This document shows, one piece after another, positions 8,387 to 23,722 of a DNA stretch of 64,000 nucleotides (its first letter is position 1; each line of letters opens with the position of its first letter). Position numbers and translations under genes: made by a program. The stretch lies in the NCBI GenBank assembly GCA_017542475.1, contig JAFXXD010000008.1:21788-85787 (forward strand), written 5' to 3'. The stretch comes from Ruminococcus sp. Its GTDB lineage: Bacteria; Bacillota; Clostridia; Oscillospirales; Ruminococcaceae. The notes beneath the pieces were generated by a model. It did no database searches. It was not told where the DNA came from and was given only the letters and a program-made list of their open reading frames with translations.

Positions 8387-8387
8387 A

Positions 8388-9284: not shown

Positions 9285-9342
9285 ATCATCGCTCCAAAAT
9301 CTGTTATTAACCGTACTTGCGGCTCTATGATAATTAATGTAA

Positions 9343-9422
9343 TGCGCAAATTCCATATATTATCAAAGAATTTGCGCACCCCGAACGAAGTTCGGGGCAA
9401 TAACCGCCTAACGGCGGTTATT
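9343..9422 (-). promoter_or_regulatory. Three abutting hairpins in the kinase leader
   Basis: Within the predicted 5' leader of the PfkB kinase, three perfect hairpins lie almost end to end: 9399-9422 (AATAACCGCC/GGCGGTTATT), 9379-9397 (CCCCGAAC/GTTCGGGG) and 9343-9378 (TGCGCAAATTC/GAATTTGCGCA, 14-base AT-rich loop). None is followed by a T run on the minus strand, so they are not ordinary terminators. Confidence 0.75.
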
Positions 9423-9434
9423 GAGTACACATTA

Positions 9435-9463
9435 ATTATATCCCGTATAAGCCGATGTGTCAA
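9435..9463 (-). promoter_or_regulatory. Promoter of the PfkB kinase (proximal)
   Basis: Perfect consensus on the minus strand: TTGACA (9458-9463), 17-base spacer, TATAAT (9435-9440). Transcription would start near 9428 and run straight into the three leader hairpins. Confidence 0.88.
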
Positions 9464-9464
9464 G

Positions 9465-9496
9465 AAAAAGCTCCCTCCGAAAGATACGGAGAGAGC
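9465..9496 (-). terminator. Minus-strand terminator just upstream of the kinase promoter
   Basis: GCTCTCTCCG/CGGAGGGAGC stem with one mismatch and five Ts on the minus strand, positioned between the distal and proximal promoter-like elements. No gene lies upstream of it on this strand, so it would end a very short transcript. Confidence 0.65.
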
Positions 9497-9506
9497 ATTG
9501 CGGATA

Positions 9507-9535
9507 ATTATACACCATTTCACTCGGAATTGAAA
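9507..9535 (-). promoter_or_regulatory. Second (distal) promoter-like element on the minus strand
   Basis: TTTCAA (9530-9535), 17 bases, TATAAT (9507-9512). A transcript from here would meet the terminator at 9465-9496 within a few bases of its start. It may be a decoy or part of an attenuation arrangement. Confidence 0.45.
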
Positions 9536-9578
9536 CTCATTTTTTGTGTTTTCAGTGGATAAAATTCGGATTTTTCTA

Positions 9579-9607
9579 TTGATTTTTTTGCTCCCGTGTA
9601 CTATAAT
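9579..9607 (+). promoter_or_regulatory. Promoter of the LacI/AraC-type regulator
   Basis: TTGATT (9579-9584), 17 bases, TATAAT (9602-9607). A TTTCAGTGGA sequence lies 20 bases upstream (9550-9559); the same ten bases occur inverted upstream of the endoglucanase promoter. Confidence 0.85.
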
Positions 9608-9640
9608 GAATGTAACCACTATATGACACGGGGTGACGCT

Positions 9641-11809
9641 ATGAGTTCAAAACGTCCTATTATCGCCGTTGTTACCGCTCTCGCGAACGGCTTCGCGGAG
9701 AAGGAGCTCCTCGGCGGCATTATTTCCGAAAACAAGAAGAGCGGCTATGCTACGGTCGTTTTCTCGAATATATACAACATCGTACAGCACGACGACGACC
9801 TCCTCTGCGAGCGTAAGATATACGACCTCGTGCGCTCGCCCGATATCAGCGGCATCATCCTCCTGTGCGAGTCCTTCGTCGAGGAGAATATCCGCCGCCA
9901 TATCGCGGCTGTCCTCGCGGGGACGGACGTGCCCATTATCGGCATAGGCACGCGGCTTGCGGAGTTCGACTCCCTCGGCTACGATCTCATCAGTACCGAC
10001 GACAGAGCCGACCTCGCTCTGCTGACCTCGCACCTCATCGAGGAGCACGGCTTCACCGATATCGACCTGCTAACGGGTATGGAGCAGATAGAGTCCTCGC
10101 GTCTGCGTGCAGAGGGCTATCTCACGGCACTTGAAGCGCACGGCATTGCTCCCGATAAGGACAAGGTGTTCTTCGGCGACTTCTGGTTCACCTCGGGCGA
10201 ACAGCTCGCAGACCGCTATATAAGCCGCGAGCTGAGGCTCCCGCAGGCTGTCATCTGCGCCAACGATATGATGGCTTACGGTATGCTCCGCCGCTTCTCG
10301 GAGGCGGGCGTGCGCGTGCCCGAGCAGGTCACAGTCGTGAGCTATGAATACTCCGATATCAGGATATTCTACACGCCCGCGCTGACCTCATTCCGCAGGG
10401 ACAGGCACTCGCTCGGTACCGCCGCAGCAAAGCGTCTGCAAGCCGTTCTTGAGGGCAGGACTCCGCCCGAATTTGTTCCCCCGCAGGGACAGTTCGTGTT
10501 CGGCGGGAGCTGTCCGTGCAGGGCTGACGAGGCGCAGTCGCTCTCGGAGCTCAGAAACGCCGAGCGCCGCAAGAATTTCACCGACCTCAGCCTGTTCAGC
10601 ACCATGGAGCACAAGCTCACGCTCTGCCGCGATATGGACGAGTTCATTCAGATAATCCGCGGTCACCAGTGGATGATACAGGACAAGAAGAATATCTACC
10701 TCTGCCTCTACTCAGACTGGAACGAAGCAGATTCGGACAGGTCCGAGATAATGCGCTCGGTGAGTATCCTCAGCGGGGATAAGCCCTTCGAGATGGATCA
10801 CCTCGACCTGCGTGCCTTCTTCGAGCGCGACCACGACGCCGCCGTATGCTACCTCAATCCCCTCTTCTCGGGACAGAAGCTATTCGGCTATATGGCGCTG
10901 CTCTATGCCTCCGCCTCGAGCTATGAGGACGTGTACAGGCACTGGCTGAAATCGGTGTCGATAGGTCTGGAGTTCCTCCGCCTCAAAAACGATATCCGCT
11001 ACCTCATAAGCTGTCAGAATGTGTCCGAGTACAGGGACACCCTCACGGGTATGAACAACAAAAAGGGTCTGCGCCGCGCTTTTCAGGCAGTGCTCGTGCA
11101 CGACAACAGAAAGCTCTGCTTCGTGACGCTCCGTATCGACCTCTTCCCGAAGCAGCTCAACGACGACGAGATACGCCGCAAGACAGACGCCCTCCTCGGC
11201 GTGTCGAAGACGATAGCGAGGTTCTGCGGAAATCACGATATTTCGGGATATATGGGCGATGATACCTTCGTCTGCATTATCCAGAGCCACGCCGAGCCCG
11301 AGGTCATTGCCGACCTGCTGACAGCTGTGCTCTTACAGGAAAAAAACTACATCGGCTACGCGGGTACGAGCTCCTTCGCCTGCTGTGCCATTCCCTGCGG
11401 GGAGCTGAGCTTCGATGAGCTCACTGAGCAGAGCTCGGAGCTCATAAAGGCGGAGCACCGCAGGCTCACCGCGCTCCGCAGGAATAAGAACTACGCGGAT
11501 ATGCTCGCCGTGCGCGACCGTATCTACTCCGCGACCGAGGCGACCTTCGAGCACGACAGCGATAACATCTACACCGACCGCATCGACTTCTTCCGCCGCA
11601 ACTATAAGAGCTGCTTCGGCGTCCCATTCCATCAGGACTGCATAAATGCACGTATCGCCAAAGCCAAGTACTACCTCGCGACTACCTCGCTCGGTATCAG
11701 CGATATCTCCGAGAAGTGCGGCTATGTGGACTACAAATACTTCCAGCGCCAGTTTGCGGCGAGCACGGGTCTGCCCGCGCTCCGCTACAGGAACCTCATC
11801 AAGAGCTGA
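9641..11809 (+). CDS. Hybrid regulator: LacI-type sensor, degenerate GGDEF-like middle, AraC DNA-binding domain
   Basis: 722 residues. The first 290 residues form a periplasmic-binding-protein/LacI sugar-sensor domain (IIAVVTALANGFAEKELLGG, AVICANDMMAYGMLRRFSEAG) without the usual N-terminal HTH. The middle carries a segment resembling the start of a GGDEF domain (YRDTLTGMNNKKGLRRAF) with no GGDEF catalytic loop. The last 100 residues are an AraC-type double HTH (DISEKCGYVDYKYFQRQFAASTG). Start at 9641 is chosen for GGGGTGA seven bases upstream; earlier ATGs lie too close to the transcription start. It sits in front of a GH5 endoglucanase, so control of polysaccharide degradation in response to a sugar is a reasonable inference. 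A protein with the same N-terminal design begins at 62882. Confidence 0.85.
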   Translation: MSSKRPIIAVVTALANGFAEKELLGGIISENKKSGYATVVFSNIYNIVQHDDDLLCERKIYDLVRSPDISGIILLCESFVEENIRRHIAAVLAGTDVPIIGIGTRLAEFDSLGYDLISTDDRADLALLTSHLIEEHGFTDIDLLTGMEQIESSRLRAEGYLTALEAHGIAPDKDKVFFGDFWFTSGEQLADRYISRELRLPQAVICANDMMAYGMLRRFSEAGVRVPEQVTVVSYEYSDIRIFYTPALTSFRRDRHSLGTAAAKRLQAVLEGRTPPEFVPPQGQFVFGGSCPCRADEAQSLSELRNAERRKNFTDLSLFSTMEHKLTLCRDMDEFIQIIRGHQWMIQDKKNIYLCLYSDWNEADSDRSEIMRSVSILSGDKPFEMDHLDLRAFFERDHDAAVCYLNPLFSGQKLFGYMALLYASASSYEDVYRHWLKSVSIGLEFLRLKNDIRYLISCQNVSEYRDTLTGMNNKKGLRRAFQAVLVHDNRKLCFVTLRIDLFPKQLNDDEIRRKTDALLGVSKTIARFCGNHDISGYMGDDTFVCIIQSHAEPEVIADLLTAVLLQEKNYIGYAGTSSFACCAIPCGELSFDELTEQSSELIKAEHRRLTALRRNKNYADMLAVRDRIYSATEATFEHDSDNIYTDRIDFFRRNYKSCFGVPFHQDCINARIAKAKYYLATTSLGISDISEKCGYVDYKYFQRQFAASTGLPALRYRNLIKS

Positions 11810-11845
11810 ATGCATATTTCGTCCACTGAAATCAAACTTTATGGG

Positions 11846-11875
11846 TTGATAGTATTCCTCCTTGTATTGTATAAT
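11846..11875 (+). promoter_or_regulatory. Promoter of the GH5 endoglucanase
   Basis: TTGATA (11846-11851), 18 bases, TATAAT (11870-11875). The sequence TCCACTGAAA (11822-11831), inverse of the element upstream of the regulator, lies 14 bases before the -35 box. Confidence 0.82.
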
Positions 11876-11930
11876 ACGTACAGTAAATGAGTACGTGAAG
11901 TTTATACGTTTCAAGGAGGAATGATCATTT

Positions 11931-13424
11931 ATGAAGATGAACAGGCTCGTTTCATCCGTAACTGCGGCATTTATGATGCTTTCAGGCATTGCTTCGTCCG
12001 CTCCCGCGCCGTCCTATGCGGCGGGAGAAATGCGCGATATCACAACTATGGAGCTCGTCAGGGATATGGGTATCGGTATCAACCTCGGCAACACCTTCGA
12101 GGCGTGCCCCGACTGGTACGGCGAGGACTGGATTGCCAAATGGAGCGACGGTAAGCCCAATAACTACGAAACTGCGTGGGGAAGCCCCGTTGTCACAAAG
12201 GAAATGATAGAGGGTATGGCCAAGGAGGGCTTCGGCGTCCTGCGCATACCCGTGGCGTGGTCCAATATGATGGAGCACGACGGCACCTACACCATCAATG
12301 CCGAGTACGACGCGCGTATACACGAGGTCGTTGACTGGACGCTCGAGTGCGGTATGTACTGCATTATCAATATCCACTGGGACGGCGGCTGGGTGAACAA
12401 GTTCCCCGACGACAAGGAAGAAAGTATGAAGCGCTACTCCCATATGTGGGAACAGATAGCCGAGAGCTTCAGGGACTATGACGACTACCTGATGTTCGAG
12501 TCGCAGAATGAGGAGCTCGGCTGGGAGTCGCTGTGGAACCCGTGGGGCGGTACAGAGGGAAAGGCGGAGTCGTATGCTCTCTGCAATGAGATAAATCAAA
12601 AATTCGTTGACGTGGTAAGAGGCTCGGGCGGAAACAACGCAAAGCGTCATCTGCTGATATCGGGATATAATACGGGATTTGACCGCACCTGCGACCCTCT
12701 CTTCAAAATGCCCAGCGACCCCGCCAACAGAATGGCTGTGTCCGTTCACTACTACACGCCCGCAGGCTTCTGCATTCTCGAGGACAAGGACGAATCATGG
12801 GCGAAGGCTCGCAGTACGTGGGGTACCGACGAAGATTACAATGAGCTCAACGGCTGGATGGATATGATGAAGACCAACTACGTCGATAAGGGCATTCCCG
12901 TTATCATCGGCGAGTACGGCTGTCCCACCAAGGGCAAGGAAGCCGCCTCCGTAAGAAAGTTCATCAGCTCCGTCTGCAAGGCGGCTTACGAGCGCCAGCT
13001 CTGCCCCGTGCTCTGGTCTACTCCCGATTCCACCACCGACGACGGCACCATTATCAAGGGTCACTACGACCGCAAGGCATATAAGCTCGCAGATCAGGAG
13101 CTCCAAAAGGAGCTGTTCGCGATAGGCGGCAAGGAATACTCGCCGCGTGAGGTCGGAACAACCACGACCACAACAGAAACTACAACAACAGAGACTACCA
13201 CCACTACAGTGACTACCGCCACTGAGACTGCTCCCGCGGCTGTAATGGGCGACGTAAACGGCGACGGCAAGCTTGAGGTCGCTGACCTCGTTACCCTCAG
13301 CAAATGGCTCCTCGGAGACAAGGACGCAGACCTCGCAAAGTGGCAGAACGCCGACTTCGACGGCGACGGCAGGATAGATACCTTCGACCTCTGCCTCATG
13401 AGAAAAAGCCTTCTTCTAAAATAG
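11931..13424 (+). CDS. Secreted GH5 endoglucanase with type I dockerin
   Basis: Signal peptide (about residues 1-31, ending SYAA), then a GH5 catalytic domain (about 35-395) resembling subfamily 4 endoglucanases and xyloglucanases: GINLGNTFEA, RIPVAWSNM, INIHWDGGW, acid/base Glu194 in ESQNEE and nucleophile Glu328 in IIGEYGCP. A Thr-rich linker (about 409-433) leads to a dockerin (about 437-496) with two calcium-binding repeats, GDVNGDGKLEVADLVTLSKW and DFDGDGRIDTFDLCLMRK. The protein should be exported and docked into a cellulosome. ATG at 11931 follows AAGGAGGA. Substrate (cellulose, mixed-linkage glucan or xyloglucan) cannot be decided from motifs alone. Confidence 0.95.
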   Translation: MKMNRLVSSVTAAFMMLSGIASSAPAPSYAAGEMRDITTMELVRDMGIGINLGNTFEACPDWYGEDWIAKWSDGKPNNYETAWGSPVVTKEMIEGMAKEGFGVLRIPVAWSNMMEHDGTYTINAEYDARIHEVVDWTLECGMYCIINIHWDGGWVNKFPDDKEESMKRYSHMWEQIAESFRDYDDYLMFESQNEELGWESLWNPWGGTEGKAESYALCNEINQKFVDVVRGSGGNNAKRHLLISGYNTGFDRTCDPLFKMPSDPANRMAVSVHYYTPAGFCILEDKDESWAKARSTWGTDEDYNELNGWMDMMKTNYVDKGIPVIIGEYGCPTKGKEAASVRKFISSVCKAAYERQLCPVLWSTPDSTTDDGTIIKGHYDRKAYKLADQELQKELFAIGGKEYSPREVGTTTTTTETTTTETTTTTVTTATETAPAAVMGDVNGDGKLEVADLVTLSKWLLGDKDADLAKWQNADFDGDGRIDTFDLCLMRKSLLLK

Positions 13425-13442
13425 TAAAATTTCCCCGAAAAG

Positions 13443-13468
13443 ACCGTACCCTTGTGGTACGGTTTTTT
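13443..13468 (+). terminator. Intrinsic terminator after the endoglucanase
   Basis: ACCGTACC/GGTACGGT stem with a five-base loop and six Ts, 18 bases after the stop codon. Confidence 0.92.
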
Positions 13469-13515
13469 CATTTGCGGGGATCCCCCCGCACATATAGTTC
13501 GGAATGAAAAGTTTT

Positions 13516-13655
13516 CCGTAGGGGCCGCCTTTGGCGGTCCGCAATTACGGAAATGGCAGGCGATGAAAAATCTGCGGAAGCGCAATGCGCGTCCCTACAG
13601 TTCGGTTCAAGCGGTTTATCGGTTATTTCGCGGGCGGCGAAACGCCGACTCTACA
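13516..13655. repeat. Three TGTAGGG-family palindromic repeats
   Basis: Copies at 13516-13542 (core GGCCGCCTTTGGCGGTC), 13573-13600 (reverse, AGCGCAATGCGCGTCC with one mismatched arm base) and 13630-13655 (reverse, GGCGGCGAAACGCCG). They fill the 306-base gap before the TIR gene, where no other feature apart from its promoter was seen. Confidence 0.78.
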
Positions 13656-13664
13656 ATTCAGTGC

Positions 13665-13693
13665 TTGCATTTTCGGGGCTAATGTGGTAGAAT
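13665..13693 (+). promoter_or_regulatory. Promoter of the TIR/RCK-RyR unit
   Basis: TTGCAT (13665-13670), 17 bases ending in TGTGG, then TAGAAT (13688-13693); the TGG before the -10 gives an extended -10 element. Confidence 0.75.
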
Positions 13694-13730
13694 TATTGTG
13701 TATGTTTAATTTTCGATAAGGAGAAAGGAT

Positions 13731-16700
13731 ATGGATTACAAGTACAAAGCCTTTATAAGCTACCGCCACCTCGAGCCCGATATGCAGGCGGCGGAGAAAT
13801 TACAGAAGCTCCTCGAAAGCTACAAGCCCCCCAAGAACCTCGGCAAGGTCAAGGAAAACTGGCGTATCTTCCGCGATGTGTCGGAGCTGCAGTCGAGCAG
13901 CGACCTCAGCGAGGATATCAAGAACGCTATCGAGACCTCCGAGTATCTCATCGTGATATGCTCGCCGAAATATACCGAGTCGAAGTGGTGTATGCAGGAG
14001 CTACAGCGCTTCCGTGCGCTCCACGACAATACCAATAAGAACATCATCACCCTCCTCGTGAGCGGTGAGCCGCACGAGTCCTTCCCCGAGGAGCTCACCT
14101 ATACCGAGATGACCACCACCAACGAAAAGGGCGAGGAGGTCAAGGTCAAGGTCGAGGTCGAGCCGCTCGCTGCCAATATCAAGGCGGATACGCTCAAGGA
14201 GTCGATGAAGAAGCTCGATACCGAGTACCTGCGTATCGCCGCTCCCCTGCTCGGGTGCGACTTCAACGACCTCTTCCAGCGCGAGAAGCGCCGCGAGGCT
14301 GCACGCAGAAGGCGTATCTTCGGCGGAGTTTCGGGCATACTCTCGCTCATCACCGTGATAAGCGTCGCCTCGGCGGTGACTATCAGCGGCAAGAACGTGA
14401 AAATAAAAAAGCAAAATGAACAGATAAAGGAACAGAACGAGCAGATAGAGGCGAAGAATATCGACCTGCGTATCGAGAACGCGGGTCACCTCGCTGCCGA
14501 GTCCGAGAACCTCTTCAAGGAGAGCAGCCTTATCCCCGCTATTAAGAAGGCGGTGGAGGCTGTGCCGACAGACGATACTCCTGCGCTGCCCGAGGCTGAG
14601 TACGCGCTCTCGCGTGAGCTCGGTATGTTCAAGCACAGCCAGCTCGTGCCGCAGCTCGCACTCAGGCACGAATGTGCGGTAGAGAAGCTCTCGTTTATGG
14701 GCGGCGGCAGGTCCGTAGTAACGCAGGACGCCACGGGTATCTACTTCTGGGACGCCGAAAACGGCAGCCTCATAAAGAAGATAGCGGCGACCGACAGCGA
14801 GTTCGTTTCGGAGACGGGCGGAAGCTCCAACGAGCTGACGGCTTTCTTCGATGTCAGCCGCGACAAGACTGGCACCTACTACGAGTCTACCGCTACTCCG
14901 AGCAGCATCACCTATGAGAACAGCTCCGTTTTCAACAAGATCTACACCAACTTCGTGCACTCCGTCGATGACGATGAAGAGGGCACGGGCGGCGACGTTT
15001 ACGTATACAACTCCGACAGGACTGTATGGCGTCTCGACGGCGCTACGGGCGAGGTCAAGTGGAAGGCTGAACCCTCCGAGAAGGCGAACACCTACTACAG
15101 CGTTAAATTCGACGAGAAGTACGTGCTCCGTCTGTATCAGGACAAGAACGTTATGCCGAGCGGTCTTTCCTTCCCCGGCAATGACATCTACCTTGAAATT
15201 ATCGACCGCGAAACAGGTGCGGAGGTCGATTCCGTGAAGGTCACGGACGCTTCAAAGTCCACCTTCGGCTTCCTTATGGATATCTCTGTCCTGACCGTGA
15301 ATGACGGCGTGCTCTATGTCTACAGCGAGAACGACAGGGTCGTCAGGGCGTTCGATATAAAGGACCACTCCATCGAGATGAGGAATGAGGTCGAGGTCGG
15401 CTTCGCCAACGACGGTGGTATCAATAATACCACGTTCAGCTTCGTCGGCGGTGACCCGCTCATTACCGCGTGCAGTGTGCTCGCGTTCGATACAAGGACC
15501 TCCTTCACCCGCTACGACAGCGAGATGAAGGAGCAGAAGTGGAGCGCGGAGCTCCCGATAAACTATCAGAGCGGCGGCACCGAGTTCCTCATCCCCGCGG
15601 GAGATTCGGGCTATGACCACGATGTCCTTGCGGTCATGACCAAGTTCTCGCTCTCGTTCATCGACTACGAGGACGGCTCTGTCATCGCTTATATCCCCTT
15701 CGACAGCGAGGTCGTTGACTCGTCGTTCAGCCGCAACGGTCTTGTGATGTTCACCGTCAAGGACGGTGAGGAGTACGTTGTCAGCCTCGGTCACTATACC
15801 ACGGGCAACAGCTCCGACAACGCGGCATACAGAGTCCAGAAGATGAACACCGCTGTCTATGTATCCAGCTACAGCCGCGGCAGGTACGCGACCGCCGACA
15901 ACTACTCCAACATCGCGTATATCCAGTACGTCAGCGATAATCCGTCGTACACCGACATCGACGCGGGCGAGTATATGTACGCGCGTGATGTGCTCGCTGT
16001 CTCCGAGGACGGAGCATACGCTGCTGTATCGGCTGCATACTACCCCGACGGCAAGTACACCAACGGCGGCTCCAACGTCGTAAGACACCTCTTCATCTAC
16101 GACGTGAAGGGTGAGAAGCTGACCGAGGTCAGCACGCTGAAGGGCTACGAGGTGCACAGCGCGGCTTTCGCCGGTGATACGCTCGTGTTAAACGCCGCCC
16201 CCGGCGACAGCTTTGGCGACGAGATAACAGCGACCGTCGATGCTTCAAGCTGCACATCGGATATCGTCTCCGACGCTCCGCAGGCGCAGCGAAATGGTAT
16301 GAAGGTAGTCTCCACCGATAAGGGCGCGTACTACCTCGCGGATTCGGACAGGAACCTCGTATATGTCACTCCCGACGGCAAGTGCACGCCATGGGCTGTC
16401 AAGGACGAGGACACCTACAGCCTCGATAAGCAGGTGATCGACGGAATGTATGCCGTTTCCGACAGCAGAGCCGCTATGTATGCGCAGTTCAGCGGCGAGG
16501 ACGGCAAAAAAGCCCTCATCGTCCACGATTTCAGCCTCGGTCAGCACGTGACCCTCGAATTCGACCCCGCTGCCGACGAGGGACTTGATGTCCTGCGTAT
16601 CTTCTGGCAGAACAGCGAGACTGTCGGCGTCTTCTTCAGTGACCGCACTGTTTCGCTCTATGACGCCTCCACGGGCAAGCTGAAAAATACCGTATCGCTC

Positions 16701-17138
16701 AACGGTACAAGTCAGGAGCCTGTCTCCGTGATACCGTTCACGTCCAACAGCTTCGCCGTGCTCTGCCGCGACTCGCGCCTCTACGAGATGAACGCCGACG
16801 GCTTCACGGGCAGGAGCTGCCGCCTCGACTTCGCTGACGAGAACGACAACGATATCCGCGAAAGCGACAGCTCGAACGCGGATAAGCTCGATATACAGCC
16901 CACCGAAGACGGCTTCCCCGCCTTTGTCATCTGGAACGGCTCGCAGGCGTGGTATGTCGATGAGGAGAGATTCACCGTAAGATACAGGATAGACGAATTC
17001 GCGTGCGCTCCCGCTACGGGCAGCAGCGTATTTATCAGGGACAAGGACCGCAACAAGATAGGCTTCTTCCCGATATACTCCACTAAGCAGCTGCTCGACG
17101 CCGCAAAGGGCTACCTCTCGGCTCTCGGAGAAGAGTGA
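13731..17138 (+). CDS. Membrane TIR-domain protein with coiled coil and beta-propeller
   Basis: 1135 residues. Residues 4-100 form a TIR domain: YKAFISYRH (box 1), RIFRDVSELQ, Glu61 at the position of the NADase glutamate in a SEDI context, and ESKWCMQELQRF (Trp86, Cys87). A basic stretch (REKRREAARRRR, 184-195) precedes one transmembrane helix (about 197-218), then a coiled coil (about 221-262, NEQIKEQNEQIEAKN). The remaining 870 residues are beta-strand repeats such as GIYFWDAENGSLIKK and RVVRAFDIKD, resembling WD40/PQQ propeller blades. The positive-inside rule puts TIR in the cytoplasm and the propeller outside, a receptor-like layout. Start at 13731 follows GGAGAAAGG. The next gene begins 12 bases later and is a membrane RCK-RyR protein. 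The TIR may act as an NAD-cleaving enzyme or as an adaptor; this cannot be told apart here. Confidence 0.85.
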   Translation: MDYKYKAFISYRHLEPDMQAAEKLQKLLESYKPPKNLGKVKENWRIFRDVSELQSSSDLSEDIKNAIETSEYLIVICSPKYTESKWCMQELQRFRALHDNTNKNIITLLVSGEPHESFPEELTYTEMTTTNEKGEEVKVKVEVEPLAANIKADTLKESMKKLDTEYLRIAAPLLGCDFNDLFQREKRREAARRRRIFGGVSGILSLITVISVASAVTISGKNVKIKKQNEQIKEQNEQIEAKNIDLRIENAGHLAAESENLFKESSLIPAIKKAVEAVPTDDTPALPEAEYALSRELGMFKHSQLVPQLALRHECAVEKLSFMGGGRSVVTQDATGIYFWDAENGSLIKKIAATDSEFVSETGGSSNELTAFFDVSRDKTGTYYESTATPSSITYENSSVFNKIYTNFVHSVDDDEEGTGGDVYVYNSDRTVWRLDGATGEVKWKAEPSEKANTYYSVKFDEKYVLRLYQDKNVMPSGLSFPGNDIYLEIIDRETGAEVDSVKVTDASKSTFGFLMDISVLTVNDGVLYVYSENDRVVRAFDIKDHSIEMRNEVEVGFANDGGINNTTFSFVGGDPLITACSVLAFDTRTSFTRYDSEMKEQKWSAELPINYQSGGTEFLIPAGDSGYDHDVLAVMTKFSLSFIDYEDGSVIAYIPFDSEVVDSSFSRNGLVMFTVKDGEEYVVSLGHYTTGNSSDNAAYRVQKMNTAVYVSSYSRGRYATADNYSNIAYIQYVSDNPSYTDIDAGEYMYARDVLAVSEDGAYAAVSAAYYPDGKYTNGGSNVVRHLFIYDVKGEKLTEVSTLKGYEVHSAAFAGDTLVLNAAPGDSFGDEITATVDASSCTSDIVSDAPQAQRNGMKVVSTDKGAYYLADSDRNLVYVTPDGKCTPWAVKDEDTYSLDKQVIDGMYAVSDSRAAMYAQFSGEDGKKALIVHDFSLGQHVTLEFDPAADEGLDVLRIFWQNSETVGVFFSDRTVSLYDASTGKLKNTVSLNGTSQEPVSVIPFTSNSFAVLCRDSRLYEMNADGFTGRSCRLDFADENDNDIRESDSSNADKLDIQPTEDGFPAFVIWNGSQAWYVDEERFTVRYRIDEFACAPATGSSVFIRDKDRNKIGFFPIYSTKQLLDAAKGYLSALGEE

Positions 17139-17150
17139 AAGGACAGATAA

Positions 17151-19109
17151 ATGAACAATAACAAGAGCCGCAAAAGAACTACGCGGCTGATATTCCTGCT
17201 CGCTGTGCTGTCGTTCCTAATAGCGACGGCGCAGGGACTTATCTACTACAGAAACTATGAGGCGTTCTTCAAGTATCTGCTCGTGCTGCAGAACAGTATC
17301 AACGCCTTCGGCTTCAAGGCTACCGTCACGCTGAAGGACACTGTCGCCTTCATCAAGGACGACCCGTCACCGCTGCACAAGGGTATCGGCTACGCCTACT
17401 GCGTCGCGGTATTCACCGCTCCGTACTGCACGATATCCTTCATATACAAGTTCCTCGAGAGGCTACTGCGCTTCATCATCTTCTTCCGCAGGAACAGGAA
17501 CTGCCGCCATATCGTGGTCTTCGGCTACAACGACGACGTGAAGTCGATGATAAAGAACAATACCTCCGACCCGAAGAAGGTCTGCATCCATATCGTGACC
17601 GCAGAGCCCGTCGCCAGCGAGGAGGTCTACCGCCTCAACAGGTCGGGCTATATCGTCCACTCCGCTGACGTGCTCAAGGCTAAGGAGGCGGAGCTCCCCG
17701 CTCTGCTCGCAAAGACGCACATCGAGGACGCGACAAACATCATCCTCTTCGAGAGCTCGTCGATACGCAATTTCTCGCTGCTCCAGCTCTTCCGCCTCAA
17801 TGAGAAGGACTCGCCTGACAGGATAAGGCTCGCAGCAGGGACAAAGGTGTCGTGCAGGTGCGAGGAGGAGGGCATCGGGCGGCTCATCGCCGAATACTAC
17901 AACAGCGCCGCGGGCAGCGACGCCTGCTTCGACCTCGAGCTCGTGGGTCTGCCCGAAATGCAGATACACAAGATGTACTCCGACCACCCGCTCCACACGG
18001 TATACAGGGGCACGGACACGCCGCTCAAGGACTGGAACGTCCACCTGCTCGTGGCGGGCTTCGGTCAGCTCGGTCAGCAGGCGGTATTGCAGGCGATGAA
18101 CCTCGGCGTCGTGCACGAGAGCAACCGCATAGTCATCGACGTCTTCGACTGCAATATCAGAACGAAAAAGGCGGTCTTCCTCAATCAGTTCAGCCGAGGG
18201 AGCTTCGATATCTCCGACGATAAGGCTGTGCTGAGAAGCGGAGTCGCCGACGGTCTGCTTGAGATAAACTTCCACGAGCTCAACGTCGCACACGTCGGCT
18301 TCTTCGATACCGTCCGCAGCAGGCTCGGCTCCGAGCCGTATACATACGCGGTCATCGCTCTTGAGAACATCGACCTCTCCGTCAGCTGCGCTATGCAGCT
18401 CGAGGAGATATTCTCCGAGTGCGGGCTCAAGCTCCCGATACTTATGCGTATGGATACCGACCGCAGGCTCGCGGGGTATATCTCCGCCGATGACGGCGCT
18501 CTCACGGACGTCTGCCTCATCGACGACAGGAGCGTCGTGATAACCCTCGATATGATAATCAACCGCGCTATCGACCGCAGCGCCAAGGACTACAACCACT
18601 TCTACAACAATATCGCGCTCATTACCGCCGATGAAGCGGGCGCGGCAGACAACTCCGAGGACGACCCCGAGCAGGAATGGAACCGCCTGAGGCTGTTCCG
18701 CCGCTCGTCAAGCAAGGCTGCTGCCTACCACGACGAGGTCAAGGACGACATCATCCCCAAGCTCGCAGCCGAAAACGGTACAGAGCTCGCCGACAAGCTC
18801 GAGGAGCTCATCGGCAGGAACGGCTCGCTGATGAGGTATACGGGCTCGGCATGGCAGATGATAGGCTCGGAGGAGGAGCTCCTCGACGCTATGAAGCGCG
18901 ACAGCTTCGCGTATGAGCTCGCGGCTCTCGAGCACAGGCGCTGGTGCTGCTATATGGCTTCCATAGGCTGGCGTGCGGGCGAGCGCAGCGACAAGCTCCG
19001 CCGCAATCCCTGCCTCGTCACTCAGCAGGAGCTTATGGAGAAAATGCCCGAGATGTGCAAGTACGACCTGATGTCCCTTATGGCAAGATACAGGAAAATG
19101 AACAACTAA
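17151..19109 (+). CDS. Two-helix membrane protein with tandem RCK/TrkA-N Rossmann domains and a C-terminal RyR domain
   Basis: 652 residues. Two N-terminal hydrophobic segments (about 10-32 and 75-103) flank a 40-residue loop without a potassium filter (no TVGYG). They are followed by a TrkA-N/RCK-like Rossmann domain (HIVVFGYNDDVKSM, about 118-230) and a second one (VHLLVAGFGQLGQQAV, about 298-420), the layout of ion channels gated by cytoplasmic RCK domains. The C-terminal 90 residues match the RyR-repeat pattern: ELAALEHRRW, GWRAGERSDKLRRNPCL, QQEL. Prokaryotic RyR domains are thought to bind nucleotide-type ligands. It begins 12 bases after the TIR gene with AAAGGA as ribosome binding site and ends at a bidirectional terminator, so the pair forms a closed two-gene unit. 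A ligand-gated membrane effector or sensor coupled to TIR is my inference. Confidence 0.8.
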   Translation: MNNNKSRKRTTRLIFLLAVLSFLIATAQGLIYYRNYEAFFKYLLVLQNSINAFGFKATVTLKDTVAFIKDDPSPLHKGIGYAYCVAVFTAPYCTISFIYKFLERLLRFIIFFRRNRNCRHIVVFGYNDDVKSMIKNNTSDPKKVCIHIVTAEPVASEEVYRLNRSGYIVHSADVLKAKEAELPALLAKTHIEDATNIILFESSSIRNFSLLQLFRLNEKDSPDRIRLAAGTKVSCRCEEEGIGRLIAEYYNSAAGSDACFDLELVGLPEMQIHKMYSDHPLHTVYRGTDTPLKDWNVHLLVAGFGQLGQQAVLQAMNLGVVHESNRIVIDVFDCNIRTKKAVFLNQFSRGSFDISDDKAVLRSGVADGLLEINFHELNVAHVGFFDTVRSRLGSEPYTYAVIALENIDLSVSCAMQLEEIFSECGLKLPILMRMDTDRRLAGYISADDGALTDVCLIDDRSVVITLDMIINRAIDRSAKDYNHFYNNIALITADEAGAADNSEDDPEQEWNRLRLFRRSSSKAAAYHDEVKDDIIPKLAAENGTELADKLEELIGRNGSLMRYTGSAWQMIGSEEELLDAMKRDSFAYELAALEHRRWCCYMASIGWRAGERSDKLRRNPCLVTQQELMEKMPEMCKYDLMSLMARYRKMNN

Positions 19110-19132
19110 AGCCTCTCGCGGAGGCGTGACGT

Positions 19133-19172
19133 AAAAAAACCGTAAGGGAGCTGTGCTCCCTTACGGTTTTTT
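19133..19172. terminator. Bidirectional terminator
   Basis: Perfect 13-base stem (ACCGTAAGGGAGC/GCTCCCTTACGGT) with a three-base loop, flanked by seven As on one side and six Ts on the other. It serves both the RCK-RyR gene (plus) and the lipid kinase (minus). Confidence 0.93.
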
Positions 19173-19173
19173 C

Positions 19174-20121
19174 TTATACCTCCGAAAGATAATTCTCTAT
19201 CGGGTCGTCGTATGCCGGCATACCGCGCTCGCCTATCATAAACGAGATCGCCCTCTGACAGTTGTATACCACGTTCTCAGCCGCATTTCCGCCGTACTCG
19301 CCGTCGCGAGTCCACGATATCTCCTCGTCGTTCAGCGCCGTGAAGGTTATCCTGTCCGTGCGGAAGAACTTGATGTACTCCTTGTCTATCTCCTCCGATA
19401 TATTGAGCAGAGAGTGCACTATCTGCTGGAGCTGCACGATGTTCGAGGGCTTCTTTATCAGCGTGACCTCGAATACTCCGTCGTCAAGATAAAAGTCGTT
19501 CATCGAGAGCAGTCCCGCTACGGACGCGGAATTCGTGACCATTCCGTAGATGAAGTCGTCCTCAATGACGTTGCCGTCGTACTCTATGCGCATCCTCTTC
19601 GAGCGGAGAGTGGTCAGCTGCGTCATTCCGTTGAGCACGTAGGAGATGTGTCCGAACATATTCTTTATCTGCTGTGAGGTCTCGTACGCGACGCTCGTGA
19701 AGGCTCCGAATGCGACGATATACGAGAAGAAGTCGCCGTTGAAGCCGCCTATGTCGCAGGGTGTGGGTGTGCCGTCGGTTATCCATTTCACGGCGTCCAT
19801 CGTGTTCTTGGGTATGCCGAGACTCCGCGCGAAGTCGTTGGTCGAGCCCGCAGGCAGATAGCCTATCGGCACGCGGCTGTGGCTCTTCATCATACCCTGC
19901 AGGCACTGGCTCAGAGTTCCGTCTCCGCCCGCACAGACGATGAGGTCAAACCCGTTCTCGCAGGCGTAATTCGCCGAATCTGCGGCATCTGTACCGCTCT
20001 GCGTGATATGCACCGTAACCTCGAAGTGCGCTTTATTGAATTCAGCTATTATCTCGCCGAGCTTGTCGCCGATAGTGGCTCTGCCCGCAAGGAGATTGAC
20101 TATAAAGTATAATTTCTGCAT
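19174..20121 (-). CDS. YegS/DgkB-type lipid kinase
   Basis: Diacylglycerol kinase catalytic-domain protein of 315 residues that phosphorylates a lipid at the inner membrane face. It has the ATP-binding GGDGTLSQCLQG (about 86-97), the IGYLPAGSTNDFARSLG block, and the C-terminal beta-sandwich segment found in YegS/DgkB proteins. It is likely to recycle diacylglycerol from lipoteichoic acid synthesis, the role of DgkB in Gram-positives, though related kinases have other substrates. Start at 20121 (MQKLYFIVN) follows GGAGCGAC; the 28 extra codons upstream are leader. Monocistronic, with its own promoter, convergent with the RCK-RyR gene. Confidence 0.9.
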   Translation of the reverse strand: MQKLYFIVNLLAGRATIGDKLGEIIAEFNKAHFEVTVHITQSGTDAADSANYACENGFDLIVCAGGDGTLSQCLQGMMKSHSRVPIGYLPAGSTNDFARSLGIPKNTMDAVKWITDGTPTPCDIGGFNGDFFSYIVAFGAFTSVAYETSQQIKNMFGHISYVLNGMTQLTTLRSKRMRIEYDGNVIEDDFIYGMVTNSASVAGLLSMNDFYLDDGVFEVTLIKKPSNIVQLQQIVHSLLNISEEIDKEYIKFFRTDRITFTALNDEEISWTRDGEYGGNAAENVVYNCQRAISFMIGERGMPAYDDPIENYLSEV

Positions 20122-20176
20122 AGATTTGTCGCTCCGATGATGAGTTGTTGATTCGCGTCTGTAATGAACTACATTT

Positions 20177-20205
20177 ATTATAGCTTGAACTGCTCTGTTT
20201 TTCAA
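20177..20205 (-). promoter_or_regulatory. Promoter of the lipid kinase
   Basis: TTGAAA (20200-20205), 17 bases, TATAAT (20177-20182) on the minus strand. Confidence 0.88.
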
Positions 20206-20247
20206 TAGGTAAAATATAATTAAAATATAAAAATAAATAAAAAGGTC

Positions 20248-20276
20248 TTGACTTCATCCCCTCTTAGTGATATAAT
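20248..20276 (+). promoter_or_regulatory. Promoter of tRNA-Gln
   Basis: TTGACT (20248-20253), 17 bases, TATAAT (20271-20276), 26 bases before the tRNA. Confidence 0.9.
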
Positions 20277-20301
20277 AATAAAGCTGAATCACCAAATACA
20301 C

Positions 20302-20377
20302 TGGGGTGTCGCCAAGTGGTAAGGCAGCGGACTCTGACTCCGTTATTTCGAGGGTTCAAATCCTTCCACCCCAACCA
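20302..20377 (+). tRNA. tRNA-Gln (anticodon CUG)
   Basis: Acceptor stem TGGGGTG/CACCCCA, D arm with AAGTGGTAAGGC, anticodon stem GCGGA/TCCGT around loop CTCTGAC (anticodon CTG), T arm GAGGGTTCAAATCCTTC and an encoded CCA end. The AT-richer island with broken mobile-element genes begins directly after it, so its 3' end is a likely historical integration site. Confidence 0.97.
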
Positions 20378-20390
20378 GCGCCAAGCGGGC

Positions 20391-20470
20391 GCGCAGTTCG
20401 CGTTTCACTTCTTGTGGGACGCGAATTTTTTTTCGCGCTCCATAGTGTATCTAAATCAGTTCACCCTTAC
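20391..20470 (+). repeat. TTCGCGTTTCAC palindromic repeat, copy 1
   Basis: About 80 bases beginning GCAGTTCGCGTTTCACTTC and ending near AAATCAGTTCACC; contains TTCGCGTTTCAC paired with GTGGGACGCGAA. It matches 28149-28227 with only a few differences. It starts 14 bases after tRNA-Gln. Confidence 0.8.
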
Positions 20471-20500
20471 ATATCGTCATAACAAAATTGATGACATAGT

Positions 20501-20530
20501 AAAAAAAGCCCGAAATATCAGGCTTTTTTG
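20501..20530. terminator. Probable terminator after tRNA-Gln
   Basis: AAAAAAAGCC.GA paired with TC.GGCTTTTTT around a short AT loop; A run and T run on the two sides make it work in either direction. Confidence 0.7.
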
Positions 20531-20574
20531 CTGCCCAAATCTCGAAAAATTTACTTCGATTTTCATAGATGACA

Positions 20575-20950
20575 TTGGGCTGTTTTAGCCATTTGTAAGG
20601 ATTTGAACTCTCAAAAGAGCAGATACAGTCCCCTCCAAAGGTTGAAATACAGGCAAATCTCGATTTTGTCGGTGAAAAATAGTATACAAAGTTTTGGGCT
20701 CGGTTTTAGTGGTTTTCACGAATTGTGGAAACGCTGGAATCGAGTCCTTTTTTGTTTCTTGTCAGCAAAGTGATAGAACGCCTATCAGCGATTTGTGAGC
20801 CGTTTTTGACGGCGACAGCGTCAGAACGTGAAACGATACCACTGAGAGCAGGTAAAGCCGCTGTGAGCGATTTGTGTGCCTGTCAGCCGATACATAGAGA
20901 GCAGATCACGCCTGCTGTCTATGGAAGAAAACTGATAGGAGGAAAAGCGA
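20575..20950. other. Non-coding remnant upstream of a degraded mobile-element gene
   Basis: No convincing gene. The stretch resembles the leader regions of conjugative-element cargo operons, with repeated GCGATTTGTG words at 20788-20797 and 20856-20865, and ends in a good ribosome binding site (ATAGGAGGAAAA) for the broken gene that follows. I found no integrase, relaxase or transposase. Confidence 0.35.
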
Positions 20951-21379
20951 ATGAACAAATTCTATATGAACGGTAAGCTGATACACAAGGCTTCCGATCA
21001 CAACACCAAACGCTGTGAGGTCGAGAAATGAGTATTTCTGCCTCACTCCGACTTTGAAAGGCTGAAAGCAAATCCGTATCAGGAGCATGAAGCGATAACA
21101 GCAGCCAAAGACCTTATGTACGCGGACAAGGAGGCTTATCACTGCATAATGCTGCTTGACGAGTATGGCGATGACGTACTGCTCATTGAAGCAGACGGCT
21201 TTGACTATCCCCGTTATTCCATGTTCGTCCCTGATGCAAAGTCTATCTACGAGAGGTACCAGACATCAGAGCCTGAACAGAAACTGCATGATATGATCAA
21301 GGATACAGTCGAAAGAATCGCCGAGTTCGCCCATACAGGCAAAACAGACTTCACATCAGCTGATAATAATAGGCATTAA
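20951..21379 (+). pseudogene. Mobile-element type protein with an in-frame stop
   Basis: ATG at 20951 after AGGAGG opens MNKFYMNGKLIHKASDHNTK. The frame hits TGA at 21029-21031, then continues in the same frame to 21379 (VFLPHSDFERLKANPYQEHE to the end) for 142 codons in total. A single CGA-to-TGA change would explain it. The hydrophilic composition and style resemble small cargo proteins (DUF6329-like) of conjugative elements, a resemblance from memory. Translation might restart at the ATG at 21116, but no ribosome binding site is evident there. Confidence 0.6.
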
Positions 21380-21505
21380 CTAATTGTAGAATGGAAGCAA
21401 GCAATGCAAACAGTACGAGAGACAGACATTACCCATAGCACAGCTTTATCCACTCATAGCTAAATCTTTTTGCTACAGTAAAACTATAGTGCTCAGAATC
21501 AAGCA

Positions 21506-21535
21506 AGAAGCTCCCCGATATTTCGGGGAGCTTCT
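21506..21535 (-). terminator. Hairpin terminator after the M23 peptidase
   Basis: Perfect 13-base stem (AGAAGCTCCCCGA/TCGGGGAGCTTCT) with a TATT loop, three bases beyond the peptidase stop. The T run on the minus strand is weak, but the stem is very stable. Confidence 0.75.
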
Positions 21536-21537
21536 CA

Positions 21538-23331
21538 TTATTTCGTAAGCAGTTTTCGCATTGAACAAAGGTCGAATATATCAAGTCTGCCGTCATTGCA
21601 CAGATCTCCAGCTTGCCAATTTGAAAGCTTTGCGTCGGGATCTGCAAGAAGCCATTTCTGCAATAGTACCAGGTCGGACACAGTAAAGCTGCCGTCACAG
21701 TTGACATCACCTTCGACATCGGTGATACTGCGATAGCGGAACTGATAGGAACTTGCATCAGGATCCATCAAATCCGTCCATTCGGATTCTTTTGTATACT
21801 TGTGCTGCTCGACCTTCACTCTGTTCTGATAATCATATGCTTTGTACCAAACCTGACCGCCGTTGCCGCAGACAACTTTATTGCCCGCCTGCGTCTTGGC
21901 AAGATAGTAGGGGTGACCCTCATCATCTCCCTGATCGTAAACGTTCATATCTGCGTTCGGCATGACTATCTCATCATAGCTGCTAAAACGAGAGGTCTTT
22001 TCGTAATTGCACTCACAGGGGAATGAACCGCCGGGGATGCAGTAATGATAGAAGTATTCCTTCACACAAACTCTGGCATCGGAGGTCTCCAGCGGATAAT
22101 CCTTGTTGGTGTAGACCCCGCCGGTGTTCTCCCACATCGTCTTGGCAACGCCATTGTCATGCCAATCCTTGCCGGGAGACTCGACTCCGAGCTTTTCATA
22201 GCGGTTCTTATACTCTGTTATAGTAAGATCGGGATCGTTTTCTTTTGGAACTGCAGAACAATAGGTCCATGTCTGAGCACCGCCAACAACGAAATCGACC
22301 GTATCGATAGTTTGCTTGGAGCCGTTTTCGCGGACTGCATTCAGTACAGCACGGTAATTTCCGTCCTCTAAGGCAGTAACAGCAGAGTTCAGTTCAGCAG
22401 TTTTTGTCAGTTCAAGCGATTCCGATGTACCAAGATCGGTGATCTTCAATACAACTGATTTAGCATTACCATCAAGTGTCCATTTAAAATTCGTCTTGCC
22501 TGTACCTGCGTCTGGTGTCACCAACAGATCGCCTTTTACGGGAGCCTCTTCAACAGTAAAGACCACGCTGTCCGAGAAGGTGAATTTATCATGCGAATTG
22601 ACTGACGCGATGTTTGCGAAATACTTTCCTGCCGGCAGAACTATACTGTAGGTAGTTCCGTCTTTATAGCCAAATAGAGTCTTATAGTCTGTTTCTGTTT
22701 CGTAGATATAAATACGGATATCATACCACTCTGTATCAGAGCAGGCTGTCCATGTCAGGACCGTATTTGTTTCGGAATTTCCCGCATTAACAGTCAGTGT
22801 CGGCTTTGAAGGGGTCGGAGCGAGCTCATATATGTAGCTGAAGCTGTCAGGGTTCACATTCACACGCCCTCCCGAGCCATACATACTTGTTGCATAGGCA
22901 AAATGCAGATGTGGTCCCGTGCTGTTTCCTGTCGTTCCAAGCTCACCGATCTTTTGTCCCTGTTCTACCCACTGACCGCTTGATACACAGTAGGAATTCA
23001 GATGCGCATAGTGGGAATAATAGCCGTTGCCGTGATCAATAACGACACCGTTGCCGTAGCCGTACCACTTACCTGCTACATCGCCCGTAAATGCACCGAC
23101 AACAGTTCCCGACCGCACCGCACATACATCCATTCCTATCGTGCCGCCGATATCAAGTCCGTCATGACTGGAAGAGTAGTATGTGTTGATCTGGCGCGAG
23201 GCAGGAACAGGCCAGTAGTAGCCATCCACATCCGCAGATGCGAATCTCGCAGGAGTTACCGAGATGATCGTAAACACAGAGAATAATACTGCAATAAGAC
23301 AACTGATAAGCTTTGATCTTTTCATTTTCAT
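21538..23331 (-). CDS. Secreted M23 (LytM) peptidase with dockerin
   Basis: 597 residues: signal peptide (about 1-33), then a LytM-type zinc endopeptidase domain (about 45-150) with all expected ligands, His56 and Asp60 in SHDGLDIGG, His110 in YAHLN, and HLH at 141-143 in TGPHLHFAY. Two fibronectin-like beta domains follow (about 175-265 and 270-355). After them comes a Cys- and aromatic-rich region of unknown function (about 360-535, including CVKEYFYHYCIPGG and QFRYRS) and a canonical dockerin (about 540-596, GDVNCDGSFTVSDLVLLQKW and DLCNDGRLDIFDLCSMRK). A cell-wall endopeptidase carrying a dockerin is unusual. It may remodel peptidoglycan for cellulosome display or attack other bacteria; this is inference. 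Codon use is AT-richer than in the core genes. Confidence 0.88.
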   Translation of the reverse strand: MKMKRSKLISCLIAVLFSVFTIISVTPARFASADVDGYYWPVPASRQINTYYSSSHDGLDIGGTIGMDVCAVRSGTVVGAFTGDVAGKWYGYGNGVVIDHGNGYYSHYAHLNSYCVSSGQWVEQGQKIGELGTTGNSTGPHLHFAYATSMYGSGGRVNVNPDSFSYIYELAPTPSKPTLTVNAGNSETNTVLTWTACSDTEWYDIRIYIYETETDYKTLFGYKDGTTYSIVLPAGKYFANIASVNSHDKFTFSDSVVFTVEEAPVKGDLLVTPDAGTGKTNFKWTLDGNAKSVVLKITDLGTSESLELTKTAELNSAVTALEDGNYRAVLNAVRENGSKQTIDTVDFVVGGAQTWTYCSAVPKENDPDLTITEYKNRYEKLGVESPGKDWHDNGVAKTMWENTGGVYTNKDYPLETSDARVCVKEYFYHYCIPGGSFPCECNYEKTSRFSSYDEIVMPNADMNVYDQGDDEGHPYYLAKTQAGNKVVCGNGGQVWYKAYDYQNRVKVEQHKYTKESEWTDLMDPDASSYQFRYRSITDVEGDVNCDGSFTVSDLVLLQKWLLADPDAKLSNWQAGDLCNDGRLDIFDLCSMRKLLTK

Positions 23332-23484
23332 TTACAAACACACCCTTTCAACGTATCAAAGTTAGCTGGCAGAGCGTTGAAGCTCTGCCGCTTTTGCTTA
23401 TGTTTGGACATTATTGTCGATCTGTACTGTCAGGTAACGTTTGTCCCCCTTGTTGGCTTAACAGCAGGATCAATATCCACTATT

Positions 23485-23513
23485 ATTATATCTTCTCCAA
23501 TGGAACGATACAA
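23485..23513 (-). promoter_or_regulatory. Promoter of the M23 peptidase
   Basis: TTGTAT (23508-23513), 17 bases, TATAAT (23485-23490) on the minus strand. The 150-base leader contains a GGCAGAGC/GCTCTGCC hairpin at 23368-23389. Confidence 0.82.
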
Positions 23514-23586
23514 CCCAAGCTGCAGAATTAACACGTTTTGATGTAAAATGTACATTTGAACGGTTCGGCAGAGGTCGGCGGATATC

Positions 23587-23615
23587 TTGCTTTTTTCCTA
23601 TGTGTATGCTATAAT
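23587..23615 (+). promoter_or_regulatory. Promoter of the LytTR/AgrC-type pair
   Basis: TTGCTT (23587-23592), 17 bases ending in TGC, TATAAT (23610-23615): an extended -10 promoter. It diverges from the peptidase promoter about 70 bases away. Confidence 0.85.
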
Positions 23616-23722
23616 GGATGCGATATCTTTACGCTTTTTCTGAAAGCATATGCAGATACACCGATCGCAGAGCACTTTCTGTGCTCCGACAATTATAGCA
23701 TTACTGAAGGTGAGAGATTGCC

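Follow-up and report, generated by a model that had tools for sequence, protein, structure and literature searches.

A TIR-propeller gene and its RyR-domain membrane partner in Ruminococcus: a candidate signalling unit resembling Thoeris

The stretch of DNA analysed here (64,000 nucleotides of contig JAFXXD010000008.1 from Ruminococcus sp., positions 21,788 to 85,787, in the following called the window) contains two adjoining genes. Gene 1 encodes a membrane protein with a TIR domain and a predicted β-propeller, gene 2 a membrane protein with two helices, two Rossmann-like regions and a C-terminal RyR domain. The explanation that we favour, at about even confidence, is that they form a membrane signalling unit of two genes, which resembles Thoeris and has a new kind of effector: the nucleotide made by the TIR domain would be sensed by the RyR domain of the membrane effector. 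The genes follow each other on the same strand at a distance of 12 bases (from the coordinates of the open reading frames, ORFs), key residues of both domains are present, and the two-gene unit is found in some gut and rumen bacteria. The whole analysis was computational, i.e. it consisted of comparisons of sequences, profiles and gene neighbourhoods, and its pairwise E-values are not equivalent to database E-values. Gene calling at the compared loci was mechanical, and the labels "propeller type", "RCK-like" and "HD-like" of distant proteins were in part assigned by eye.

Linkage and distribution of the two genes

Both ORFs lie where an earlier reading of the window, made by a model from the letters alone (the sequence-only reading), had put them (Table 1). 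A search of the genome contig set with gene 2 yielded 27 loci. In 26 of them a TIR-propeller gene stands directly upstream, and in the 27th (L065, Lachnospiraceae, 32% identity) a different TIR protein, which has no propeller (TIR_2, 4.3e-13), is encoded 9 bases upstream. Altogether 33 loci were compared (the window, L039-L065, G646, G607, G606, G704 and Fusobacterium vincentii); they were found by gene 2, come mostly from one genus and are not independent. A TIR gene adjoins the gene 2 homologue (RCK-RyR gene) in all 33, which belong to clostridia and one Fusobacterium, and in 31 the TIR gene is of the propeller type, a call made from a long match to gene 1 in 27 cases, from Pfam for G607, from WD40 matches for F. 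vincentii and from resemblance for G704 and G606. Where a gene is broken by a frameshift (copies L039, L061 and L132), the copy was counted for adjacency only. The spacing was measurable at 25 of the 26 Ruminococcus-type loci, L039 being left out because of its frameshifted gene 1: the genes are 12-19 bases apart in 15, overlap by 4 bases in 7 and by 11 bases in 3.

Among 60 genomes of the window's genus gene 2 is present in 15 and gene 1 in 16; 15 have both, one has gene 1 alone and 44 have neither. Of the 15 genomes with both, 14 have them side by side. In G646 they are on separate contigs, and the TIR gene that adjoins gene 2 there is a convergent one; in G665, which carries gene 1 without gene 2, a DHH-type gene is found in its place. 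Three further genomes of the genus with the pair (G662, G664 and G666) have a TIR-propeller gene within 30 bases of an RCK-RyR gene, as judged from the match ends; they were kept outside the 33 because they show no positional match to L039-L064 and are possibly duplicate strains.

The class-wide scan with the family profile matched 4 of 391 genomes, namely the window's own, G607, G606 and G359. The match in G359 (C19) is false, it appears by eye to be a cell-wall enzyme and is not among the 33. In G607 and G606 a TIR-propeller-type gene adjoins the RCK-RyR gene, the genes of G606 being frameshifted. Three of the 12 genomes of G607's family match: G607 itself, G704, which has the pair, and G703, which we left out of the 33 and whose match is another RyR protein, of 792 amino acids. 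This protein ends in the RyR domain and is encoded beside a SLOG-like gene (L183 1-3945; motif GITGHRD, by eye). A tblastn search of the plasmid set returned a single match, F. vincentii NZ_CP084075, where a TIR gene encoding 1018 amino acids ends 3 bases ahead of the RCK-RyR gene. The F. vincentii gene 2 product matches that of the window over its full length (21%, 5e-21), whereas gene 1 matches in the TIR domain and the helix only (35%, 1e-37) and resembles WD40 proteins in its rear part. The pair recurs in two phyla.

These counts do not bear out the possibility, raised along with the sequence-only reading, that the genes occur mostly apart in related genomes. Chance neighbourhood was rejected, because the adjacency recurs across the loci, the genomes of the genus and F. 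vincentii. Gene 1 and gene 2 also diverge in step (Mantel r 0.95 for 24 pairs, with 0 of 2000 permutations as high), a correlation that shared species history would equally give. Overall, the evidence supports the core of the sequence-only reading, in which gene 1 and gene 2 act as a single unit with a nucleotide as the connection between them.

Domains, key residues and layout of the locus

By sequence, gene 1 has a TIR fold (Pfam, TIR_2 2.1e-15 and TIR 8.4e-12), followed by one membrane helix (residues 194-221, hydropathy) and a repeat region (PQQ_2 1.2e-12), and to this extent the earlier description of the protein stands. The propeller region gave no significant match to PDB sequences, the best being a BamB-like chain at 0.27. 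Mean column conservation is highest in the TIR domain (0.88) and lowest in the propeller (0.61); a conserved TIR domain joined to a variable propeller is expected of a sensor under change. The topology claimed previously, with the TIR domain inside and the propeller outside the cell, is likely as a prediction: it is favoured by the Arg cluster at the start of the helix and by NAD+ being inside, whereas the flanking charges (+3 before the helix, +2 after it) do not decide it and the charge count was not used.

The sequence-only reading had assigned the NADase position to Glu61. Alignments with solved TIR domains place the WC-x-x-E glutamate of gene 1, which we take to be the catalytic NADase position of TIRs, at E90. 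Among 26 diverse TIRs the E90 column is Glu in all 26 and the E61 column in 9, and E90 stands in the context W-[C/V]-x-x-E in the 19 propeller-type TIRs among those aligned. Although E61 is invariant among 25 close relatives of gene 1, we rejected it as the catalytic residue; on the evidence of these alignments E90 is likely to be the NADase glutamate.

In gene 2 the hydrophobic segments at residues 9-34 and 84-102 agree with the two helices described before, and the charges flanking them are compatible with both ends of the protein being inside. RyR is the only domain that Pfam finds in this protein, and the known effector types of Thoeris (SIR2-SLOG, macro-TM, caspase-like) are not among its matches. 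Taken singly, the protein matches RyR weakly (0.0031, under the Pfam cut-off), but profiles of its relatives make the match firm. The 27-member gene 2 profile matches the RyR1 chimera 6uhi at 6.9e-8 per chain (its two repeats at 0.02 each), a profile of 8 diverse members matches the RyR1 chimera at 5.3e-14, and PF02026 is matched at E up to 1 by 25 of the 27 members, the window protein included. The C-terminal RyR domain of the earlier description can be retained.

The idea that such RyR domains bind nucleotide-type ligands, also part of the sequence-only reading, has gained support from outside. Phage RyR domains were recently shown to bind isomers of cyclic ADP-ribose (cADPR; PMC13232231, here and below as far as the available part of that article goes). 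RyDEP, a phage glycosidase of RyR fold, both binds 2'/3'cADPR and cleaves it; H75 and D117 form the catalytic pair, while W78 contacts the adenine and H100 the phosphates. Of its homologues 6 of 8 bound the signals; cleavage was not seen with them, the tested ones being sponges (PMC13232231). The probable counterparts of H75, W78 and D117 in gene 2 are H595, W598 and D639, an assignment made via RyR3 and by spacing and requiring a shift of 3 residues for D639. In a set of ten diverse RCK-RyR proteins, which includes that of Fusobacterium, all three belong to the 17 columns without variation.

Two elements flanking the pair had been described as its own promoter and a bidirectional terminator. 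The first could not be upheld, because the promoter scanner found no + strand site for the pair and the promoter-like sequence picked by eye fits in only 8 of 12 positions. The terminator, which was read by eye and was not listed by the scanner, is kept: an A run precedes its 12-bp stem and a T run follows, it is therefore usable from both sides. The GC content over the pair (56-60% at 14001-19000) resembles that of the upstream side, downstream it is 37-49% (20001-28000), a comparison that is not conclusive. A scan of 13000-20500 for RNA elements had tRNA-Gln at 20302 as its sole match. The adjoining secreted enzymes (11931-13424 and 21538-23331) have dockerin-like C-termini by eye, which is expected in a cellulosome-making Ruminococcus.

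Table 1. Positions of the features discussed (window coordinates, unless a locus is named)
Feature	Position	Strand	Basis
Gene 1, TIR-propeller membrane protein, 1135 amino acids	13731..17138	+	ORF, Pfam, 25-member alignment
TIR domain, residues ~5-135, WC-x-x-E glutamate E90	13743..14135	+	TIR_2 2.1e-15, PDB TIR alignments
Single membrane helix, residues 194-221	14310..14393	+	hydropathy
Polar linker, probably coiled-coil	14394..14525	+	by eye
BamB/PQQ-like repeat region, predicted β-propeller	14628..17090	+	PQQ_2 1.2e-12
Gene 2, transmembrane RCK-like-RyR membrane protein, 652 amino acids	17151..19109	+	ORF, 27-member alignment
First membrane helix, residues 9-34	17175..17252	+	hydropathy
Second membrane helix, residues 84-102, followed by a basic flank	17400..17456	+	hydropathy
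First Rossmann-like region (HIVVFGYNDD), unproven as RCK	17502..17960	+	alignment; no profile support
Second Rossmann-like region, GFGQLG motif, weakly RCK/TrkA-like	18033..18590	+	alignment, profile comparison
RyR domain, match at residues 585-635	18903..19106	+	invariant H595, W598, D639; N619
Weak promoter-like TTGCAT-17-TAGAAT before gene 1	13665..13693	+	by eye, 8/12 positions
Terminator, perfect 12-bp stem (19140-19166), 3-base loop, T run	19140..19173	+	by eye
DHH-type gene	L127 3817-5370		Pfam DHH 1.2e-17
DHH-type gene	L022 8610-10163		by eye
DHH-type gene	L006 2874-4139		by eye
DHH-type gene	L025 3863-5377		by eye
DHH-type gene	L033 8728-10212		by eye

A proposed circuit and its alternatives

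In the circuit that we favour, the propeller would sense a stimulus outside the cell, and upon its signal a dimer or cluster of TIR domains would form. From NAD+ the cytoplasmic TIR domain could then, through E90, produce a nucleotide of the ADP-ribose type, a cADPR isomer being the most likely one, and this product would be bound by the RyR domain of gene 2. The resulting change would be passed by the Rossmann/RCK-like part to the two helices, acting as a membrane pore or as a membrane-disrupting part, and this membrane event would stop the growth of the cell or kill it.

An association of TIR and RyR is also seen outside the pair. The Pfam RyR model matches 27 of the 391 class genomes, the window's own included (26 above the cut-off), and TIR_2 matches 123; without correction for kinship, TIR_2 is present in 22 of the 27 RyR genomes vs. 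101 of the 364 others (Fisher 4e-8), and a TIR lies within 2 kb at 9 of the 29 RyR loci in the 26 other class genomes vs. 0.1 expected, and at 7 of the 10 strongest RyR matches. The link persists across changed architectures. L065 contains a run of three genes (6375-11993), which encode the TIR protein, the RCK-RyR protein and, downstream of these, a protein that matches RyR weakly (0.075). Solo RyR genes next to a TIR occur as well. At L024 and L103 a solo RyR gene stands beside TIR-propeller-type genes, whereas L104 and L105 have a transmembrane protein ending in RyR, a solo RyR and a TIR, with the solo RyR between the other two. In L107 (5329-8035) and L108 (5163-7841) an RyR protein with a front end that is HD-like by eye is directly followed by a TIR-LRR protein. 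L027 has RyR-like pieces of a broken gene ahead of a TIR-propeller-type gene.

Some other RyR genes were seen in different company. In L099 (1489-13324) an RyR gene is clustered with a large kinase-like gene, a phosphatase-like gene (both by eye) and TIR genes. L111 (6920-9559) and L113 (6751-9354) encode proteins of about 870 amino acids that combine an AAA/MoxR-like ATPase part (weak Pfam matches, from L113) with RyR at the C-terminus; a TIR gene is lacking within 2 kb of them. On the Priestia plasmid NZ_CP128553 (L136 3515-5285) an adenylate/guanylate cyclase gene immediately precedes a solo RyR gene, a gene of a Pycsar effector family lies upstream and a TIR downstream; this arrangement suggests that RyR may also serve cyclase signals.

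A number of findings weigh against the favoured circuit. The RCK identity of gene 2 is weak, and the two RCK domains of the sequence-only reading were not confirmed. No RCK/TrkA-N match was obtained for the gene 2 product by Pfam or by PDB sequence search. In profile comparison with 29 TrkA segments the second Rossmann-like region has modest support (P 2e-4 local, 5e-5 global), and the first has none (P 0.04-0.05; control segments 0.6-0.97). The relatives L120 and L123 match TrkA_N at 0.007 and 0.0007, both below the cut-off. A T-x-G-Y/F-G selectivity filter is absent from residues 1-160 of the 27, 8 and 10 aligned members. The equivalent of RyDEP H100 is N619 in the window's group (it is His in L125, L133 and L135). 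As to the association itself, the genome-level and locus counts are, as said, uncorrected for kinship, and at 20 of the 29 RyR loci of the class a TIR is lacking within 2 kb; RyR and TIR are therefore associated but not inseparable. Other transmembrane RyR proteins, namely those of genus g179 (4 genomes) and a shorter type with two helices and a single RCK-like region (7 loci), likewise have no TIR within 2 kb, some of these TIR-free loci lying on contigs under 5 kb; the g179 genomes encode TIR proteins of about 1000 amino acids elsewhere. Finally, no defence island is evident around the pair among the neighbour matches listed, and the phage set yielded no copy of the pair, nor did pattern scans of viral contigs, whose reach was limited.

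It is conceivable, though we consider it unlikely, that gene 2 is an off-switch, in which the RyR domain would, in the manner of phage RyDEP, bind up the TIR product or hydrolyse it and thereby protect the cell from a toxic or signalling TIR. RyDEP is a glycosidase of RyR fold and its tested homologues are sponges, and for both catalytic residues, H and D, an invariant counterpart is present here, whereas signal hydrolysis was seen with RyDEP only and with none of the other tested homologues (PMC13232231). The sister loci add a further point. At five loci (L127, L022, L006, L025 and L033), of which L127 is from the window's own genus, a DHH-type phosphoesterase gene adjoins the TIR-propeller-type gene; at the rest of the 18 loci of the gene 1 family scan neither RyR nor DHH is visible next door. 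A nucleotide-type DHH protein in the partner seat fits a nucleotide product of the TIR domain, but it also fits a degrader, and is easier to understand as a degrader than as an effector, which keeps the off-switch alive. We regard the DHH protein as a candidate nucleotide-acting effector or signal degrader. A mere sink, on the other hand, would not need two membrane helices and two Rossmann-like regions, and solo RyR genes already exist, in L104 and L105 right between the transmembrane RyR gene and the TIR.

If the RyR domain is a sensor, as in the circuit that we favour, phage defence is the more likely benefit when compared with other stress. This is suggested by the patchy presence of the pair (15 of 60 genomes of one genus), by flanks which are common to near relatives only, and by one recombinase family that is found near 3 of 26 loci. 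The alternative is that the same circuit serves against envelope, antimicrobial or osmotic stress, with the propeller responding either to an extracellular ligand or to damage of the wall, and with gene 2 as a reversible regulator of the ion balance. We find this rather unlikely, because patchy presence and shifting locations are more typical of defence genes. In its favour, the sensor is predicted to face outwards, whereas phage sensing in Thoeris concerns capsid proteins, as far as the available parts of the sources go. The surroundings of the pair also leave room for it, in that the defence island which the sequence-only reading proposed to look for did not emerge from the neighbour matches listed. 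The neighbour scan covered 101 of 131 proteins (30 were dropped by hand, many of them from the near-identical L053, L055 and L060) and the best 25 of 115 PADLOC and best 25 of 107 Pfam families. Among the matches listed, single neighbours correspond to PDC-S04 (7.5e-66), AbiQ and a GajB-like helicase, there are three recombinases, and the matches to AriA, mad3 and mad8 look like generic ATPase matches. A last point for the stress alternative comes from genus g162, where in 4 of 4 genomes (L115, L118, L119 and L124) a two-helix RyR gene, with no TIR within 2 kb, stands beside a YebC-like gene (by eye). These proteins are possibly a housekeeping branch of the family.

We rejected the possibility that the pair is phage or plasmid cargo, as nothing was found in the phage set or, within their limited reach, by the pattern scans of viral contigs, and the sole match in the plasmid set is the F. 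vincentii record; NZ_CP084075.1 is labelled as a plasmid but with 2.1 Mb it is rather a chromosome. Of 29 genomes without the pair in which the lipid-kinase-like neighbour gene was sought, 27 carry it. The flanking genes of the window were absent from all 11 loci compared around this gene in pair-lacking relatives, so an empty site was not seen among them.

Some TIRs act as scaffolds only, and RCK proteins in K+ uptake bind NAD(H), ATP or c-di-AMP. Based on this background one may imagine that the TIR domain of gene 1 is a non-enzymatic scaffold, that the Rossmann-like regions serve as sensors of NAD(H) or c-di-AMP and that the RyR domain is structural. We think this improbable, since all 19 propeller-type TIRs preserve E90 within W-[C/V]-x-x-E, and the RyR pocket contributes its His, Trp and Asp to the invariant columns of the ten RCK-RyR proteins.

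Meaning and comparison with known systems

Whether cADPR acts directly on the ryanodine receptor is an old open question in animals. The arrangement described here suggests a bacterial circuit of the "make signal, gate membrane protein" kind. In a wider version of the favoured reading, which we offer tentatively and with more doubt than confidence, a transmembrane TIR would make a cADPR isomer on an outside cue and RyR would open a two-helix RCK-like channel; bacterial RyR domains would be general receptors of TIR products, phage RyDEP stolen copies of them and the animal RyR a distant heir. The pair is kept together from Ruminococcus to Fusobacterium, and with it the TIR product, the RyR pocket and the membrane response would be testable in one small system. 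The pair would add a membrane type of effector to TIR signalling, and the partner swaps (RyR, RCK-RyR, HD-like-RyR, DHH) provide a candidate list of proteins that act on TIR-made nucleotides.

In the open-licence literature, phage or bacterial RyR was treated together with TIR only in PMC13232231, whose available part contains no bacterial RyR effector; the preprint of Yirmiya et al. 2025 is outside this scope and may overlap. The bacterial RyR-TIR pair does not appear in the accessible parts of PMC8195603, PMC9503650, PMC7159879, PMC7016017, PMC13142454 and PMC13174449, and RyR is not mentioned in those of the 2026 reviews covering Thoeris types I/II or Thoeris generally. Among models of known systems, PADLOC has none that matches gene 2, and NCBIfam gave a single chance-level match to an unrelated family (0.14). 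The RyR proteins of L024, L065, L105, L107, L115 and L120 had no PADLOC or NCBIfam match at E up to 0.01.

With RCK-gated K+ channels and the Trk/Ktr regulators gene 2 shares the order of a pair of membrane helices ahead of two Rossmann-like regions, but it differs from the channels in having no canonical selectivity filter, a weak RCK similarity and a terminal RyR domain. The animal ryanodine receptor (R12 repeat), a type of calcium channel in which this domain serves to bind small molecules, is similar in carrying an RyR domain on a membrane protein, with an ADP-ribose-type nucleotide as proposed ligand; no common channel domain is seen, and the bacterial protein has two predicted helices per subunit and Rossmann-like regions instead. 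With phage RyDEP (PF02026; PMC13232231) gene 2 has in common an RyR domain and, probably, its cADPR-site residues His, Trp and Asp, but the phage proteins serve counter-defence, whereas here we deal with a bacterial membrane protein encoded next to a TIR gene and with Asn replacing one ligand His.

The nearest comparison is with Thoeris of types I and II (ThsB and ThsA). By analogy the pair would work like Thoeris, without necessarily being a Thoeris system. In both, a TIR gene stands beside a separate effector gene in one unit, and an ADP-ribose-type nucleotide is expected as the TIR product, as far as the partially available sources tell. Gene 1 passes the Pfam cut-off for ThsB_TIR (28.1 vs. 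21.2 bits), TIR_2 scoring higher (57.7), and it matches PADLOC ThsB in the TIR part (1.1e-4); against NCBIfam ThcB4 it reaches 26.3 bits, the cut-off being 220. What sets the pair apart is that its TIR domain is membrane-bound and carries a propeller, and that the partner has an RyR domain, Rossmann-like regions and two helices in place of a SIR2-SLOG or macro domain.

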